Origin: a virus
Virus record (IMG/VR): IMGVR_UViG_3300049812_001538
Location: 1 to 36,025 of that record
Direction: 5' to 3' (one strand)
DNA: 36,025 bases
Shown: positions 980 to 31,588 of the stretch, in pieces
Layout: each line of letters opens with the position of its first letter
Numbering within the stretch: the stretch's first letter is position 1
The notes under the pieces: generated by a model
Seen by the model: only the letters and a program-made list of their open reading frames with translations
Told to the model about the DNA's origin: nothing
The model's database searches: none
Program-made: the position numbers and the translations under genes

Positions 980-2618
980 GCATCCGTTCTTACAGCCTCC
1001 GACTGACGAAGAGATTATTCTCTTAGCAGAGAAGGACCCAAAATTACTAGAGGATTTGTACACAGCCCACGAGGGACGTATACAAGCATCTGAGGAGGAT
1101 CCTATCCGTTACGGTTTTGATCTAGACGGCTGGGAAAGAATGAGACTCAGTCTCAATAACTACAATGAGTGCCTAGTACTAGGAGGGAATAGAAGTGGTA
1201 AGACCACTGGCTGCGCTAAAGTAATAATGCAAGCAGTAATGGACAACACTGATGGTCATATTGTATGCTTCAGTCAAAACGCCGATACCTCTGTTAAGGT
1301 ACAGCAGTCCGCTATATGGTCTATGATGCCCCGTGAGTTTCGTAAGAAAACAAAAAGTATCGAAGGTTATATAAATTATTCTATGCAAAATGGTTTCACC
1401 GGTAGTAGTTTTATCTTTCCAGATACTAGAACACGAGTAGATTTCAAAACTTACACGCAGTACAGTAATAATCAAACCATCCTAGAAGGTTTCGAGTTCG
1501 GTTTTAAAAAACCAGAAACCTTAAACGTAGGGGCTTGGTTAGACGAGTACCTTGGGGACGCGGCTCTAGTAAATACATTACGGTTTAGATTAGCTACTAG
1601 AAATGCTAAGATGGTAATTGGATTCACTCCAATCGATGGTTACACTCCTTTCATCAACGATTACTTAAAGGGAGCCGAAACTAAGAAAACTAGAAAGGCT
1701 GAGTTACTAAAGAATAAAGAAGTACCTATAGAGCAGTACAGTCCAGAGAGAGATGCTGGAGTTGTGTATTTGCATTCAGACGAGAACCCATTTGGCGGGT
1801 ACGAACGTATAGCGAAAGACCTCAAGGGCAGACCCGAAGAAGAGATTATGGTACGTGCTTATGGAGTACCGGTAAAATCAATGACAAGTCTGCTACCATT
1901 ATTTAACACAGAAGTAAATGTATTATCCGAAGTACCCAATAAAAACAAAAGAAGATTTCCAGACATCACTGATAAGTCCAACTATAGTTGTTATCAAGTG
2001 GTCGACCCCGCCGGAGCAAGAAACTATGTTGCAATCTGGGCGGGAGTTGATAGAGATAATAACGTCTATATTCGTAAAGAGTTCCCCGACCGTGATACAT
2101 ACGGAGAGTGGGCAATTTTTGGCGATCCAAAGTGGCGTTTTGGTCCAGCCGCGAAAAAGATGGGGTACAATGTAGAGGGCTACGTAGAACTATTTAAAGA
2201 AATAGAAGAAGAGTTAGGAATTGAAGTAATCGAAAGAATCGGGGACTCTAGATATTTCGCACGTGAAAATGAGAACAATGATGATTTGTTCACTGCCTTC
2301 TATGATTACGGTATGAACTTCATTCCTAGTGACGGTAGAACAGAAGAGATGGGGATTACTGCATTGGACGAGTGGTTCAATTACAATCCTAACGTAGAGA
2401 TAGATGAAGCCAATCAACCCAGATGTTATATACACAAAGAGTGCGGGAACTTGATTGATTCCTTAATTAATTACAACTCTAACGGAAAGATGGACGAACC
2501 CCTAAAGGACTTCTTTGACGTAATCAGATATTTACGAATGGCAAATGGCGGCGAAGGTCCCGACCATATAGATGCCAACGATTATAAAACTATAACAAAT
2601 ACAAAAGGAGGGTACTAA
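960..2618 (+). CDS. terL: Terminase large subunit
   Basis: 552 residues, the usual size for this family. It is the packaging motor ATPase and the nuclease that cuts concatemeric DNA. Visible motifs are Walker A GGNRSGKTT at about 75-83, Walker B-like VGAWLDE at about 190-196, and an RNase H-like nuclease half with acidic residues in VVDPAG (D349), RIGDS (D429) and KDFFDVIRY (D520). The start at 960 is preceded by a purine-rich ribosome binding site inside the upstream gene. The codons at 1142-1159 carry a perfect 13-base palindrome that matches the element at the genome start, a possible internal packaging signal. Confidence 0.93.
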   Translation: MELTFSKHPFLQPPTDEEIILLAEKDPKLLEDLYTAHEGRIQASEEDPIRYGFDLDGWERMRLSLNNYNECLVLGGNRSGKTTGCAKVIMQAVMDNTDGHIVCFSQNADTSVKVQQSAIWSMMPREFRKKTKSIEGYINYSMQNGFTGSSFIFPDTRTRVDFKTYTQYSNNQTILEGFEFGFKKPETLNVGAWLDEYLGDAALVNTLRFRLATRNAKMVIGFTPIDGYTPFINDYLKGAETKKTRKAELLKNKEVPIEQYSPERDAGVVYLHSDENPFGGYERIAKDLKGRPEEEIMVRAYGVPVKSMTSLLPLFNTEVNVLSEVPNKNKRRFPDITDKSNYSCYQVVDPAGARNYVAIWAGVDRDNNVYIRKEFPDRDTYGEWAIFGDPKWRFGPAAKKMGYNVEGYVELFKEIEEELGIEVIERIGDSRYFARENENNDDLFTAFYDYGMNFIPSDGRTEEMGITALDEWFNYNPNVEIDEANQPRCYIHKECGNLIDSLINYNSNGKMDEPLKDFFDVIRYLRMANGGEGPDHIDANDYKTITNTKGGY

Positions 2619-2619
2619 T

Positions 2620-2997
2620 ATGCCTAAGAAAAAACTAAAGGAAATAGCAGAAGAATACGGGATACCTTTCGAGGAAGCCCTTGATCTAGTCTTCAAAGAA
2701 CTAGAGGAAGAGATGGTTACCGGAAGGGGTAAAAGTACTTGGATTAATGCAGACGGTCAAAGGATTCTAGATGAGTTCATATCAATGCCGGTTCTTTACA
2801 GAGGACCAGTTCTACAACAAGCTCCTAATCCTATGTACGTTATGGTGTACGTAAAGGAACTGAGTAAAAAAGTCCCAGTTAAAATACCTAGACGTATGCA
2901 AGGTAAAATTACAAAAGGTAAATTAATCTACTTAGAAGCTGACAACAGTACCGATAATCCAAAATACAACTGGGTAAAAACACCTCAAAGAGTATAA
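2620..2997 (+). CDS. Hypothetical protein between terminase and portal
   Basis: 125 residues, with a good ribosome binding site (AAAGGAGGG) overlapping the end of the terminase gene. The N-terminal 40 residues (KKKLKEIAEEYGIPFEEALD) look like a small helical DNA-binding or degenerate helix-turn-helix segment. The rest is beta-rich and basic, with KVPVKIPRRMQGKITKGKL resembling a nucleic-acid-binding surface. I do not recognise a family. Its position suggests a packaging or head role. Confidence 0.7.
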   Translation: MPKKKLKEIAEEYGIPFEEALDLVFKELEEEMVTGRGKSTWINADGQRILDEFISMPVLYRGPVLQQAPNPMYVMVYVKELSKKVPVKIPRRMQGKITKGKLIYLEADNSTDNPKYNWVKTPQRV

Positions 2998-3003
2998 CTT
3001 AGG

Positions 3004-3022
3004 TTGATAGCTGTGATATTAT
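3004..3022 (+). promoter_or_regulatory. TTGATA-N7-TATTAT motif before portal
   Basis: TTGATA at 3004-3009, exactly 7 bases, then TATTAT at 3017-3022, 12 bases before the portal ATG. The same arrangement occurs before the scaffold gene and before the gene at 9882. The spacing is wrong for ordinary sigma-70 (about 17), so this may be a phage-specific late signal or only a lone -10 element. Confidence 0.35.
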
Positions 3023-3034
3023 ATTAAATAAACT

Positions 3035-5119
3035 ATGCAAAGTGACTCAATTTCAGAAAGCCTTACTTACGTAGGGAAAGAGCCAGACATTAATACATTA
3101 CGTTACGCGTACGAGCAGACTACGGTAGAGCTAGAATCATACTTTGATTTGTGCCGTACAAGTTATGACGATAGGCGCAACTGGTGGGCTGGTAAATCCC
3201 GCGATCATCGCAAGCACGGAGCTGATGCTTTCCCTTGGGAAGGAGCTGCTGATATGGAGGCGCATACGATTGACGAAAGAATTACTAGATTAGTATCTTT
3301 GTTTATGTCATCTTTGAATCGTTCAAACGTAAGAGCATTTCCGGTAGAAAGTACAGATATACCCCGAAGTAAAATAGTATCTAGTTTCTTGAAGTGGATG
3401 GTATCAAGTGGTTATATTCCACGTTTTAAAAGAGAGATGGAACTCGGAGCTAATTATTTATTAGAGCGCGGTATATTGATGACTTACGTAGGTTGGCACA
3501 GAGAGGACCGCAGATTTTTACAGCGCTTAGACCTTAATCAAATCGCTGAGATAGCACCAGAGGTAGTAGAACTTATATCCGGTGGAGAAAATGATGATGA
3601 GTTAGTAGCTTTACTAGAAACAACTTTTCCGGGAGTAACTAAAAAAAGAGCTAAGAAAGCTCTCAAGGACTTACGTAAAAATGGAGAAGCAGAACTTCCG
3701 ATAGTTCGCAGACAGATAGATGCTCCAGAAGTAAAAACACTTGCGCCGGATGGAGACTTTTTCTTTCCTCCTTATGTTACGGATCCTCAAAGAGCACCGT
3801 ACTGTTTTTGGAGAACGTACTACACAGCTCAAGAGCTAGAGAATAAAGTACTGACTGACGGATGGGATGAAGACTTTGTTGATTACATTATTCAGCACTA
3901 CAGAGGAGTCAGCATAGATAGTATAGAGCGCGAACAAGAAGGACGTAGAAGTACATCCTTAACTGACAACGCATACGAAGCAAATGAATTAATTGAAATA
4001 GTATACGGTTATCAGCGCTTGATAGATCCAGAAGATGGTTCCGAAGGTATTTATTGTACTGTCTTCCACAAGCAATTCACTGGAAACGAAGAAGCTCCGG
4101 GATATGCTAAGTTCGAGTTATTGAACGGATACGAAGATTATCCAGTAGTAGTTACTAAACTTTCTGAAGATAGTAAGAGGCTCTATGATACTCAAACTAT
4201 TCCAGACATCCTTCGCGGTATTCAGAATCAAGTCAAGGTAGAAAGGGACTCACGTATTGATAGAAACAGTCTAGCTACTCTACCTCCGATTTTGCACCCC
4301 GTTGGTCAAGCACCAACAGATTGGGGTCCCGGAAGGATGATACCTTACCGCCGAAAAGGAGATCTTGATTTTGCTCCGACTCCTCCATCTCCAGTTGGTT
4401 CCATTGAAATAGAAAGAACAATGGAAGCACAAGCGGATAGATTATGTGGACTTGATGAAACATCTCAAATATCTCAAGTACGTAAACAATTTTTAGTGGA
4501 TAAGTTTTTACAACACTCAGCAGAGGTTTTACAGATGTGTTATAAATGCTTCCAGCGGTTTGGACCGGACTCAGTTTTCTTTAGAGTTACCGGATCGCCA
4601 GACCCCGTAGCTTTCAACAAGGGCAACCCAGATGAGAACTACGATATAATGATTTCATATGATGTCCTCAATTCGGATCCAGAAACTCAAGAAAAGAAAC
4701 TTAATCAAATGGTTGCGCTCACGCAACTGGACCGCAGTGGTCGCATTAACATTGATAGCTTGCTTGATGCAGCTGCTAACAGTATTGATCCGGTACTCGC
4801 GGATCGTGTGCTACAACCTACAGAAGCAGCTCAAGAACAAGTTGTAAATCAAGTAACTGATGACCTCGCTAAAATCTTTGCCGGTATTGAAATGCCAGCG
4901 CGTCCTAACGGTGCTCAAATTGCTCTTACTGTTATTCAGCAGTACGCTTCTCAGCCGGACGTTGCACAACGACTACAGTCAGATGAAGCCTTTGCAGCGA
5001 GACTTGAAAAGTACGCTGGGCAGTACACATTCCAAATGCAACAAGCACAGAACGCTCAAATCGGAAGAGTTGGAACAGAACCAGCTCAGATGGGAGATAT
5101 TCAAACACAAGGAATGTAA
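3035..5119 (+). CDS. Portal protein
   Basis: A 694-residue protein directly after the terminase genes. It forms the dodecameric ring through which DNA enters the head and to which the tail is attached. The length and layout match large podovirus portals: an N-terminal wing/clip domain with a WWAGKSRDHRKHGADAFPW region near residue 50, a stem region with PDILRGIQNQVKVERDSRID near 390-410, and a Gln/Ala-rich C-terminal helical barrel (about 600-694). No ribosome binding site is visible; TATTAT lies 12 bases upstream of the ATG. Confidence 0.88.
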   Translation: MQSDSISESLTYVGKEPDINTLRYAYEQTTVELESYFDLCRTSYDDRRNWWAGKSRDHRKHGADAFPWEGAADMEAHTIDERITRLVSLFMSSLNRSNVRAFPVESTDIPRSKIVSSFLKWMVSSGYIPRFKREMELGANYLLERGILMTYVGWHREDRRFLQRLDLNQIAEIAPEVVELISGGENDDELVALLETTFPGVTKKRAKKALKDLRKNGEAELPIVRRQIDAPEVKTLAPDGDFFFPPYVTDPQRAPYCFWRTYYTAQELENKVLTDGWDEDFVDYIIQHYRGVSIDSIEREQEGRRSTSLTDNAYEANELIEIVYGYQRLIDPEDGSEGIYCTVFHKQFTGNEEAPGYAKFELLNGYEDYPVVVTKLSEDSKRLYDTQTIPDILRGIQNQVKVERDSRIDRNSLATLPPILHPVGQAPTDWGPGRMIPYRRKGDLDFAPTPPSPVGSIEIERTMEAQADRLCGLDETSQISQVRKQFLVDKFLQHSAEVLQMCYKCFQRFGPDSVFFRVTGSPDPVAFNKGNPDENYDIMISYDVLNSDPETQEKKLNQMVALTQLDRSGRINIDSLLDAAANSIDPVLADRVLQPTEAAQEQVVNQVTDDLAKIFAGIEMPARPNGAQIALTVIQQYASQPDVAQRLQSDEAFAARLEKYAGQYTFQMQQAQNAQIGRVGTEPAQMGDIQTQGM

Positions 5120-29427: not shown

Positions 29428-29605
29428 TTACTTCTAGTATTTGAATTTTAGCTCCCTTCTTGGTTGTGCCGTATCCATCTTTACTTGGTTTAGTAGGACA
29501 AATGTATTTGATTGCTTGAGCTTTATCATTTGCCCACTTCACTTGGTATCCTCGATAGTCTGGGTGCATATCAAAATGCTTGTAGATAATCTCGTATTTA
29601 TTCAT
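29405..29605 (-). CDS. Small hypothetical protein
   Basis: 66 residues. The ATG at 29605 overlaps the methyltransferase stop (ATGA), with AAGGG a few bases upstream, and the end overlaps the resolvase by 23 bases. The sequence MNKYEIIYKHFDMHPDYRGY followed by QVKWANDKAQAIKYICP looks like a small alpha/beta protein with several aromatic residues. No family is recognised. Tight coupling suggests a role with the methyltransferase or resolvase. Confidence 0.62.
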   Translation of the reverse strand: MNKYEIIYKHFDMHPDYRGYQVKWANDKAQAIKYICPTKPSKDGYGTTKKGAKIQILEVNEIPTSE

Positions 29606-30819
29606 AGTACCCTTTTGATAAGTGTTTCAAATGCTTTAGCAGCAGTCTGTGGTACTACTCCATTTCCGAGAAGTCGAAGTCTGTCCACCCTATTGGAAGA
29701 CCCATTAGTTGCTCCACCCAATCGGGGTTTAGCTTCAACGACACGAGGGGCTTCCCATTCGTATTGTTCTTCATTAGGTCTCGCTGGGTATTTTCCCCAA
29801 CTGCATCCGGAAGAAGATTCCTCGGTTTGTTCTCTTGGCTTTCCTTTGAATACGCTCCCTTCCAATCTCTCGATGTCGGTGTCGGATAATTCTGATTGTG
29901 CATTCCGTGAACTTGTTCCCCCAAGTTGTGCTTGCCCCGATCTGTCATCGCTGCTCGACTGTCTTGTTCCTTTGGAGTACCCCAATTCTTCGCATCCTTG
30001 TATGCCTTCACACAAGTTGGGTCCACTTGTTCTCTTAGATTCGCCGGATTGTTCCTCCCCTTTCGTGCAGTCATTGCTTGCTTCTGAGTTGCTTCGTAGC
30101 TCCTCGGCGGAAGAACATCCATTGTATTCGGAGTTGCCCAAGATGCTTGATGTATTACCGCATCCCTCAGTTTCGCTCCGTACTTCGTTCCGTTCTCCCT
30201 CGTTGCTGAGAATCCCTTCTCGTTCATCTCTACATTCTTCGCTACTCCGCCCTCTACGCAGCCCGCTACTGATGGTGTCGGATACGCCAAGGATAAAGAC
30301 TCTTTTTCTCTGATGTGGGAAGCCGACTTCACTCGCTGAGAATATTCCAGCCGTTGCTTTGTAACCCAATCCTTCCAATGTTCTGAGGACATATCTGAGA
30401 ACTGATTCTCCATCTGTGGTTTTTGCTGAGATGATTCCTTCGACATTTTCGAGGAAAACAATTCTAGGTTGGCACTCTCTGATTCCTTCTGCGATGTAAG
30501 GGAAGAGGTGTCTTGGGTCCTCTGTAGCTTTTCTAGCTCCAGCTTGAGAGAATGGTTGGCAAGGGAATCCTCCAGATAGTATGTCCACTTCTCCACGAAA
30601 TTTTCCGTATGGGAAGGTCTTAAGGTTTGTATAGATAGGTGCTGCATCCAATTGTTGCGTTTCCATCTTGTTAACCAAGTTCGCAATTGCGAAGGCTTCG
30701 ATCTCCACATAAGCGATTTCTCGGACATTTGGCAGAACTCTTCTAAGTCCTTTTCCGATTCCTTCGTATCCAGTACAGAGACTGAGGTGAGTGATTGTAT
30801 TTCTTTTGGTAGTATCCAC
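29602..30819 (-). CDS. dcm: DNA (cytosine-5) methyltransferase
   Basis: 405 residues from a GTG codon at 30819. Motif I is LSLCTGYEGIGKG (12-24), motif IV is GGFPCQPFS with catalytic Cys87, motif VI is LENVEG (123-128), motif VIII is QRKRVFILG (170-178) and motif X is VDRLRLLGNGVVPQ (378-391). The target-recognition region (about 180-360) is unusually rich in Ser, Glu, Gly and Asn. It methylates cytosine in duplex DNA, probably to evade host restriction; no cognate nuclease is obvious. Nearly the whole gene is also open in a second frame that carries conserved-looking motifs. Confidence 0.88.
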   Translation of the reverse strand: MDTTKRNTITHLSLCTGYEGIGKGLRRVLPNVREIAYVEIEAFAIANLVNKMETQQLDAAPIYTNLKTFPYGKFRGEVDILSGGFPCQPFSQAGARKATEDPRHLFPYIAEGIRECQPRIVFLENVEGIISAKTTDGESVLRYVLRTLEGLGYKATAGIFSASEVGFPHQRKRVFILGVSDTISSGLRRGRSSEECRDEREGILSNEGERNEVRSETEGCGNTSSILGNSEYNGCSSAEELRSNSEASNDCTKGEEQSGESKRTSGPNLCEGIQGCEELGYSKGTRQSSSDDRSGQAQLGGTSSRNAQSELSDTDIERLEGSVFKGKPREQTEESSSGCSWGKYPARPNEEQYEWEAPRVVEAKPRLGGATNGSSNRVDRLRLLGNGVVPQTAAKAFETLIKRVL

Positions 30820-30821
30820 AT
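29655..30821 (-). CDS. Overlapping second-frame ORF with [YW]xTP repeats
   Basis: 388 codons without a stop, in another frame of the methyltransferase gene. It starts at ATG 30821, which forms the TAATG junction with the exonuclease stop; the methyltransferase GTG is two bases further on. Four [YW]-x-T-P units occur at 180 (YPTPSV), 228 (WATPNTMD), 280 (WGTPKEQD) and 312 (YPTPTSRDWKG). The end reads LNPDWVEQLMGLPIGWTDF at 364-382. I recall these motifs, and KDWVTKQRLEYSQRVKSAS at about 150-168, from phage methyltransferase-associated proteins. It may be a separate protein, a frameshift partner or an alternative recognition region. Confidence 0.5.
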   Translation of the reverse strand: MWILPKEIQSLTSVSVLDTKESEKDLEEFCQMSEKSLMWRSKPSQLRTWLTRWKRNNWMQHLSIQTLRPSHTENFVEKWTYYLEDSLANHSLKLELEKLQRTQDTSSLTSQKESESANLELFSSKMSKESSQQKPQMENQFSDMSSEHWKDWVTKQRLEYSQRVKSASHIREKESLSLAYPTPSVAGCVEGGVAKNVEMNEKGFSATRENGTKYGAKLRDAVIHQASWATPNTMDVLPPRSYEATQKQAMTARKGRNNPANLREQVDPTCVKAYKDAKNWGTPKEQDSRAAMTDRGKHNLGEQVHGMHNQNYPTPTSRDWKGAYSKESQENKPRNLLPDAVGENTQRDLMKNNTNGKPLVSLKLNPDWVEQLMGLPIGWTDFDFSEME

Positions 30822-31588
30822 TATTTCTTTCTATTTTTTTTAGGTTTAGGTGTCATTCTCTCCGTCCAATATATTTTGGCGGCGAGCTTTGCACATTCAA
30901 AGTAGTGATTGAACTCATCGTCCGACCATTCGTAGTGGTAGTGTTCAGCTGTGTTGGTATCGATACATACTGATCGTACCTTTGGAAAGTAATCGAGCTT
31001 CAGTTTTTTAGCGAGCATTACGCTCTCGATTGCTAACTGCTTGCAGTCCTTTGGATAGAACTTACCCTTGCCGTCATTGCAACTTCGGCATTTGTAATCG
31101 GCGAGAAAGACTTTCTCATCTTTATCTAGCCCAATAAAATCAATGCTACCAGCTATCTTGAACCTACTATCTGAGATAATGTACTCGCAGTCAACGACTT
31201 GCACACCCTCTTCATTTACCCAATCTATAAAAGGTTTCGCCCAATCATCGTAAGCACTGGCTTCGCCCTCTCCGTCCATTAACCAATCCTCGATTCGTTT
31301 ATGAACGGCAGTCCCGAACTCAGAGCTTGAGATCATCTCTCCGGTAAATGGATGCTCTCGAAATCCGTAGCACCATTCCTTGAGTACAGAATAATGTTGG
31401 GTAGGATGTTCTCTTGCTAGGTCAACTAACTTTCGGGGCATATAAATACTATCGAGGAAATCGTCTTTAACTATTCCGAGTACAGTTGTAACAGATGGGT
31501 ACGCTCTTCCTTTCTTGAGGGCTTGGTGCGGCGTAGTGACATCTTCTAGAAACTGTGGAGTTTTTGAGCTTGAGTAGAAATGTGACAT
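30821..31588 (-). CDS. RecB/exonuclease VIII-like PD-(D/E)XK exonuclease
   Basis: 255 residues. SSEFGTAVHKRIEDWL (88-103), IAGSIDFIG with Asp150, FLADYKCRS with Asp164 and Lys166, and KQLAIESVML with Gln184 make up the RecB-type nuclease core. It is expected to resect duplex ends so that the ERF protein can anneal the exposed strands. The ATG at 31588 directly follows a T-run; its only ribosome binding site is GAGG inside the 3' arm of the upstream hairpin, so translation may be controlled by that structure. Confidence 0.82.
   Translation of the reverse strand: MSHFYSSSKTPQFLEDVTTPHQALKKGRAYPSVTTVLGIVKDDFLDSIYMPRKLVDLAREHPTQHYSVLKEWCYGFREHPFTGEMISSSEFGTAVHKRIEDWLMDGEGEASAYDDWAKPFIDWVNEEGVQVVDCEYIISDSRFKIAGSIDFIGLDKDEKVFLADYKCRSCNDGKGKFYPKDCKQLAIESVMLAKKLKLDYFPKVRSVCIDTNTAEHYHYEWSDDEFNHYFECAKLAAKIYWTERMTPKPKKNRKK

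Follow-up and report, generated by a model that had tools for sequence, protein, structure and literature searches.

The methyltransferase locus of the window, by which we mean the whole 36,025-nucleotide stretch of viral DNA analysed here (IMG/VR record IMGVR_UViG_3300049812_001538), very probably specifies one C5-cytosine methyltransferase composed of two polypeptides read from overlapping frames, in the manner of M.EcoHK31I; translation of the second frame and assembly of the two chains are inferred. The frames run as the initial annotation had drawn them, from a GTG at 30819 to a stop at 29602 (frame 1) and from an ATG at 30821 to a stop at 29655 (frame 2, 388 aa), with frame 2 lying at +1 relative to frame 1 and the overlap being almost complete. 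Frame 1 was matched by PF00145 over residues 10-247 (E=8e-36), and a profile match covers M.HhaI 72-173. It qualifies as a PF00145-type catalytic domain through segments that, from established knowledge of C5-methyltransferases, we take to be motifs I (CTGYEGIG), IV (GFPCQPFS), VI (ENVEG), VIII (HQRKRVFIL) and X (LLGNGVVP). Frame 2 returned no Pfam or NCBIfam match and no sequence match in the PDB, and no known homologue of its N-terminal region was found outside these overlaps; it does match PHROG 1008 (annotated as DNA methyltransferase) at 5e-16. The four [YW]-x-T-P units that had been reported in frame 2 are confirmed, and they are followed by motif IX (LNPDWVEQLMGLPIGW). The coordinates of all features are collected in Table 1.

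Table 1. Features of the two overlapping methyltransferase frames in the window
Feature	Position	Strand	Remarks
Frame 1: C5-cytosine methyltransferase catalytic polypeptide (alpha)	29602-30819	-	GTG start, 405 aa, motifs I-VIII and X
Frame-1 catalytic core	30286-30786	-	Frame-1 coding pattern, third-position rate lowered
Frame-1 motif I	30754-30786	-	
Frame-1 motif VIII	30286-30324	-	
Frame-1 low-complexity linker opposite the cassettes	29791-30282	-	164 aa; S 20%, E 15%, G 13%; omega of frame 1 about 0.8
Frame-1 motif X (LRLLGNGVVPQTAAKAF, LLGNGVVP)	29629-29679	-	Frame-1 coding pattern back past the frame-2 stop
Frame 2: putative specificity polypeptide (beta)	29655-30821	-	ATG start, 388 aa, TRD cassettes and motif IX
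Frame-2 predicted helix (MSSEHWKDWVTKQRLEYSQRVKSASHI), just ahead of the cassettes	30312-30392	-	Conserved; pLDDT 93-96 in the L144 model
Frame-2 cassette 1 (YPTPSVAG...)	30141-30284	-	
Frame-2 cassette 2 (WATPNTMD...)	29985-30140	-	Missing as a unit in relatives L004 and L006
Frame-2 cassette 3 (WGTPKEQD...)	29889-29984	-	
Frame-2 cassette 4 (YPTPTSRD...)	29733-29888	-	
Frame-2 motif IX (LNPDWVEQLMGLPIGWTD)	29679-29732	-	Same bases in frame 1 read KPRLGGATNGSSNRVDR
Overlapping twin starts, ATGTG	30817-30821	-	Frame-2 ATG 30821-30819, frame-1 GTG 30819-30817

On sequence grounds, the LNPDWVEQLMGLPIGWTD stretch of frame 2 is assigned as motif IX. The initial annotation had described the methyltransferase as complete with motifs I to X, but frame 1 lacks motif IX in every locus scanned, the motif being found in frame 2, and frame 1 does not meet the expectation that a PF00145 enzyme carries motif IX in the same chain. 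Nor are bases shared between motif X and the frame-2 motif, as had been proposed: the bases of motif IX read as KPRLGGATNGSSNRVDR in frame 1 (Table 1), and motif X lies just downstream. Among 147 distinct loci, named phages included, the motif-IX pattern occurs in the +1 frame in 123, and neither frame 1 nor the third frame contains it in any; many of the loci without the pattern are truncated at contig ends or do not conform to it. All 11 genes of the N15/E. coli-prophage type carry motif IX in the +1 frame. An hhalign comparison between the frame-2 motif block and that of single-chain actinophage enzymes gave P=1.7e-10, and the same columns read in frame 1 gave nothing against the actinophage block. 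The frame-2 profile also aligns LNPDWVEQLMGLPIGWTD to RRLTPRECARLMGFE of E. coli Dcm, a segment that stands before Dcm motif X (P=0.007; score 16.9 versus a shuffle maximum of 13.2, n=60), although, taken alone, this resemblance to motif IX of a canonical cellular enzyme is weak.

The two frames can be told apart by where substitutions fall. In a +1 overlap the third position of a frame-1 codon is the second position of a frame-2 codon, and the first position of frame 1 is the third of frame 2. Codon-position rates (1/2/3) in 161 flanking control genes were 0.106/0.068/0.268. For 65 disjoint gene pairs, the catalytic region showed rates at frame-1 positions 1/2/3 of 0.124/0.075/0.193, and the recognition region 0.210/0.100/0.110. 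For motif IX the values were 0.261/0.081/0.008 substitutions per site. Beyond the frame-2 stop the rates are back to about 0.09/0.06/0.26, that is, to the frame-1 pattern, and in part of the N-domain the frame-1 third-position rate is 0.13-0.16 versus 0.27 in controls. The window gene differs from its nearest distinct relative (L004) by 9/0/1 changes at positions 1/2/3 over 128 recognition codons. A separate set of 11 N15-type genes likewise shows the frame-2 phase in the recognition region (0.382/0.243/0.220; all pairs were used, and the comparisons are not independent).

Omega was estimated for each frame with an OLGenie-like four-class count over 58 pairs, with bootstrapping over pairs. In the recognition region (TRD) it was 0.27 (0.21-0.33) for frame 2 and 0.80 (0.72-0.87) for frame 1, and at motif IX 0.11 (0.08-0.15) and 1.34, respectively; in the catalytic region the values were 0.54 for frame 2 and 0.25 for frame 1. 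Frame 2 is therefore a selected protein opposite the linker, and frame 1 is selected in the catalytic core. Frame 2 is also constrained opposite the catalytic core, but more weakly, and the moderate constraint on the N-terminal half of beta (omega 0.54) could in part be a shadow of the catalytic domain. Dual coding is strongly supported by these selection data, and frame 2 is not a shadow open reading frame (ORF). The suspicion that the low-complexity recognition region of frame 1 has its sequence set by the other frame is borne out by both the substitution patterns and the omega values. A conserved RNA or DNA element was considered as well and rejected, because the conservation shows triplet phase in frame 2.

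To assess how open frame 2 would be by chance, frame-1 codons were permuted among synonymous positions and the longest frame-2 ORF was scored. For the window gene, 387 codons were observed versus a mean of 131 and a maximum of 311 in 1000 permutations, and the third frame showed no openness excess. Frame 2 was open beyond the permutation in all 38 diverse genes (each p <=0.045, combined p ~2e-69), with no third-frame excess across the permutation-tested genes (p=0.997). The caution that composition alone may keep stops rare is thus not upheld. Of 109 genes in the close clade, 108 have frame 2 open from the gene start through motif IX. A separate observation concerns L011 (1233-2057), which has an in-frame frame-2 stop near 1626, opposite the catalytic core, with the cassette and motif-IX part remaining open; a sequencing error may explain this, as may the weaker selection acting on the N-terminal half. 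The antisense ORF opposite the recognition region (window 29441-30313, plus strand) is present with its 290 codons as described, and is incidental because its length varies and relatives interrupt it; an antisense gene was rejected on the same grounds, the ORF length not being conserved among relatives.

Breaks in the catalytic frame occur naturally. In three loci (L148, L150 and L155) frame 1 stops after motif VIII, at 189-199 aa and inside the recognition region, and motif X is found in a separate frame-1 ORF of 110-115 aa with its own ATG; frame 2 is unbroken over 391-524 codons. The ATG of the motif-X ORF is preceded in L148 and L155 by AAAGGAGAAAAATC, which is Shine-Dalgarno (SD)-like. 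Frame 1 can therefore be cut exactly where frame 2 is selected, indicating that it holds a linker there and not a recognition domain. These loci (about 1870-4126) apparently encode a three-piece enzyme.

Between the conserved helix and motif IX, frame 2 is built of units of ~47 aa (10-90% range 31-63) that start with [W/Y]-x-TP. Parsing of 102 frame-2 proteins yielded 329 cassettes in 32 recurring families plus 49 singletons; most proteins have between one and seven, with four in the window gene. The families recur at different ordinal positions, and this shuffling was judged at the protein level and not at the DNA level, where only four blocks of cassette exchange between divergent genes were seen. 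Multispecific C5-methyltransferases of the Bacillus phages SPbeta, phi3T, rho11 and H2 carry several interchangeable recognition modules between motifs VIII and IX. The cassettes are similar to these modules in size and, like them, stand in tandem between motifs VIII and IX, but the Bacillus phage enzymes are single chains in one frame, whereas the modules described here lie in the +1 frame, outside the chain of the catalytic domain, and have a W/Y-x-TP signature. One target per cassette is the natural inference because of the resemblance to the multispecific enzymes; it remains an inference by analogy, without methylome data. Trautner et al. 1996 is cited for the multispecific Bacillus phage enzymes in PMC12707154.

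Single-frame homologues also exist. In the enzyme of mycobacteriophage Yorick (gp69) and its actinophage relatives, the catalytic core, LLPTP cassettes, motif IX (LAAAFPEWMMGWP) and motif X all lie in one frame, and PF00145 covers one such chain over profile positions 1-317 of 324. The cassettes and motif IX resemble those of frame 2; unlike at the window locus, a single frame serves for everything and the +1 frame is closed. One further locus, L210 (IMGVR_UViG_2936082405_000001), appears to be a hybrid with motif IX in the main frame, like the single-chain enzymes, and TP cassettes in the +1 frame, although this locus is rich in G and C and the openness of its +1 frame may be due to chance.

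The simplest objection to dual coding is that the methyltransferase frame is the sole gene and that frame 2 stays open merely as a shadow of its sequence and codon usage. In this clade frame 2 does always accompany a methyltransferase, and openness alone is weak evidence in high-GC members (p 0.01-0.05 for L019, L021, L026 and L027). The phase of substitution, the omega values, the codon permutation and the frozen frame-1 third positions at motif IX nevertheless speak against a shadow, as do the intact frame 2 where frame 1 is broken and the existence of single-frame homologues. We regard this explanation as scarcely credible: the data already rule it out over the recognition region and at motif IX, leaving the N-terminal half of frame 2 as the one part where it could survive. 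The initial annotation had itself proposed that frame 2 be dismissed if its codons showed no purifying selection or if it had no homologues outside the overlapping genes. Neither condition holds: purifying selection acts on frame 2, and actinophage enzymes with a closed +1 frame have the same cassettes and motif IX in one frame with the catalytic domain.

Of the three options raised at the outset, dual coding of a partner protein is favoured. Programmed frameshifting, in which ribosomes leave frame 1 for frame 2 once motif VIII has been read and return ahead of motif X, would yield an actinophage-like single chain, and the actinophage enzymes prove that the order core, cassettes, motif IX and motif X is workable in one chain. 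Two opposite shifts would be required, however, and frame 2 retains its own ATG and shows constraint ahead of the point where a shift would have to lie; the motif-X ORF of L148 and L155, with its own ATG and SD-like sequence, and the breaks in frame 1 opposite an intact frame 2 make this route unlikely. Two functionally separate overlapping proteins could also be envisaged, with frame 2 acting, for example, as an anti-restriction or regulatory factor and not as an enzyme subunit, and the lack of a known homologue of its N-terminal region outside the overlaps leaves room for an added function. We consider such a separation very unlikely, as frame 2 carries exactly the motif missing from frame 1 and its cassettes form the recognition domain in the single-chain relatives.

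The proposed two-subunit enzyme is accompanied by a conserved start arrangement. A start is kept in both frames in all 91 distinct start contexts analysed, from which 24 further loci without a frame-2 start of the expected form were excluded. The sequence ATGTG, in which the frame-1 GTG follows the frame-2 ATG by two bases, is present in 84 of them, and the seven contexts without the GTG all have a frame-1 ATG 7-16 nt upstream. An SD-like stretch precedes many of the starts (e.g. AGGAGGTAAAATG), with none detected by the pattern used in 24 of the 91 and only AGAAAG in the window. One ribosome-binding region would then serve both the ATG of frame 2 and the GTG two bases on, allowing one mRNA to supply both subunits.

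M.EcoHK31I and M.EaeI are two-polypeptide C5-methyltransferases for YGGCCR. Lee, Kam and Shaw reportedly showed in 1995 that the small subunit of M.EcoHK31I is encoded in another frame inside the large-subunit gene; an overlapping alternative frame would then be a shared trait, frame 2 being +1 and selected. In M.EcoHK31I, motifs I-VIII and X reside in the large subunit and motif IX in the small one (PMC3404938), the same split as at the window locus. Because the division of motifs is equal, we infer that frame 1 supplies the catalytic subunit, its linker bridging to motif X, and that frame 2 supplies the specificity subunit. The correspondence is incomplete: the TRD of M.EcoHK31I is assigned to the large subunit (PMC3404938), whereas the recognition region here evolves as frame 2. 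Frame 2 in the window also spans nearly the whole catalytic gene, starts two bases earlier and belongs to a type with variable cassette numbers, in contrast to M.EcoHK31I, and the window-type genes are phage genes, M.EcoHK31I being part of a restriction-modification pair. By analogy, the locus may be said to work like M.EcoHK31I without strict membership of its class. Beyond citations of EcoHK31I, phage annotations and a paper on the HNH element of phage ShiLan, no published account of this overlap was found in the literature searched. M.EcoHK31I is a precedent, and the phage arrangement is a new and widespread version.

In the proposed mechanism, alpha would provide the catalytic large domain with motifs I-VIII, a flexible linker and then motif X, and beta would provide its N-terminal region, the four exchangeable target-recognition cassettes and the motif IX that alpha lacks. 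Beta would dock on alpha and rebuild the enzyme, and would decide which sequence or sequences are methylated, such that gain, loss and shuffling of cassettes could change specificity. Activity, and the need for both subunits, are likewise inferred. AlphaFold models of frame 2 alone (n=2) had mean pLDDT of 42.6 and 60.2 and pTM of 0.17 and 0.27; they are poor outside one helix (residues ~141-172 of the L144 protein, pLDDT 93-96) and a short motif-IX helix. A fold search with the better beta model returned no fold match, only meaningless ones. Such poor solo models might be expected if the subunit folds on its partner. The gene lies between an exonuclease gene (30821-31588) on one side and genes for endonuclease VII, an Erf-type annealing protein and a DnaB-like helicase on the other, within a cluster for replication and recombination. 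None of the genes examined was recognised as a restriction gene, and for this reason the window methyltransferase is likely an orphan, protective enzyme. Its purpose would probably be to shield phage DNA from host restriction, a role that is inferred.

A total of 160 loci came out of two IMG/VR profile scans, and as judged from sequence the dual-frame arrangement appears to recur in well over a hundred phages, the laboratory phage N15 included. To our knowledge, DNA phages rarely have same-strand overlaps of nearly full length between two proteins under selection. The overlap described here is common, being found in hundreds of viral contigs from the environment and also in Phage C75C1, the Paenibacillus phages Shelly and Lily, Lactobacillus Lc-Nu, N15 (gp58), Salmonella SEN5 and a P22-like phage, Pseudomonas PMG1, Xanthomonas PhiXhv-18, Bacteroides BS-TP4, a cyanophage, Synechococcus and Acidovorax phages and E. 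coli prophages. The 'internal gene' of Shelly (gp56) and Lily (gp63) is like that of the window, with a +1 frame, TP units and a motif-IX-like end within a cytosine methyltransferase; it exists as an annotation only, and no functional reading of it was found in the literature searched. We lean, with some reservation, towards a large family in which a recognition subunit of shuffled cassettes is overwritten on the catalytic gene, ATGTG sets the subunit ratio and the product is a multispecific two-subunit (in some cases three-piece) methyltransferase, of which databases list only the catalytic half or a pseudogene. The presumed specificity half is usually unannotated, and target predictions for such phage enzymes thus rest on a low-complexity linker. 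The availability of single-frame relatives and of versions with a broken catalytic frame for comparison makes the family a natural test bed for the evolution of dual coding. In E. coli EC20 (L232; NZ_CP084900.1 1938539-1941026), RefSeq gives two partial pseudogenes for this dual-frame methyltransferase despite open frames of 404 and 343 codons.

A different kind of out-of-frame ORF is known from the methylase of the actinophage ShiLan, in which a hidden HNH element represents a homing endonuclease insertion (PMC11855218). Frame 2 is similar in being out of frame within a phage methylase, but it is without such a family match and would be part of the enzyme itself. A hidden homing endonuclease was rejected as the identity of frame 2, which has no Pfam match; such an element was seen only as an extra ORF in L161. 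There, an HNH-like ORF (L161:3606-4202; CSHC...CHQC...HHEDRN) lies out of frame within a 573-aa frame-1 methyltransferase, past the frame-2 stop, and resembles the ShiLan element (PMC11855218).
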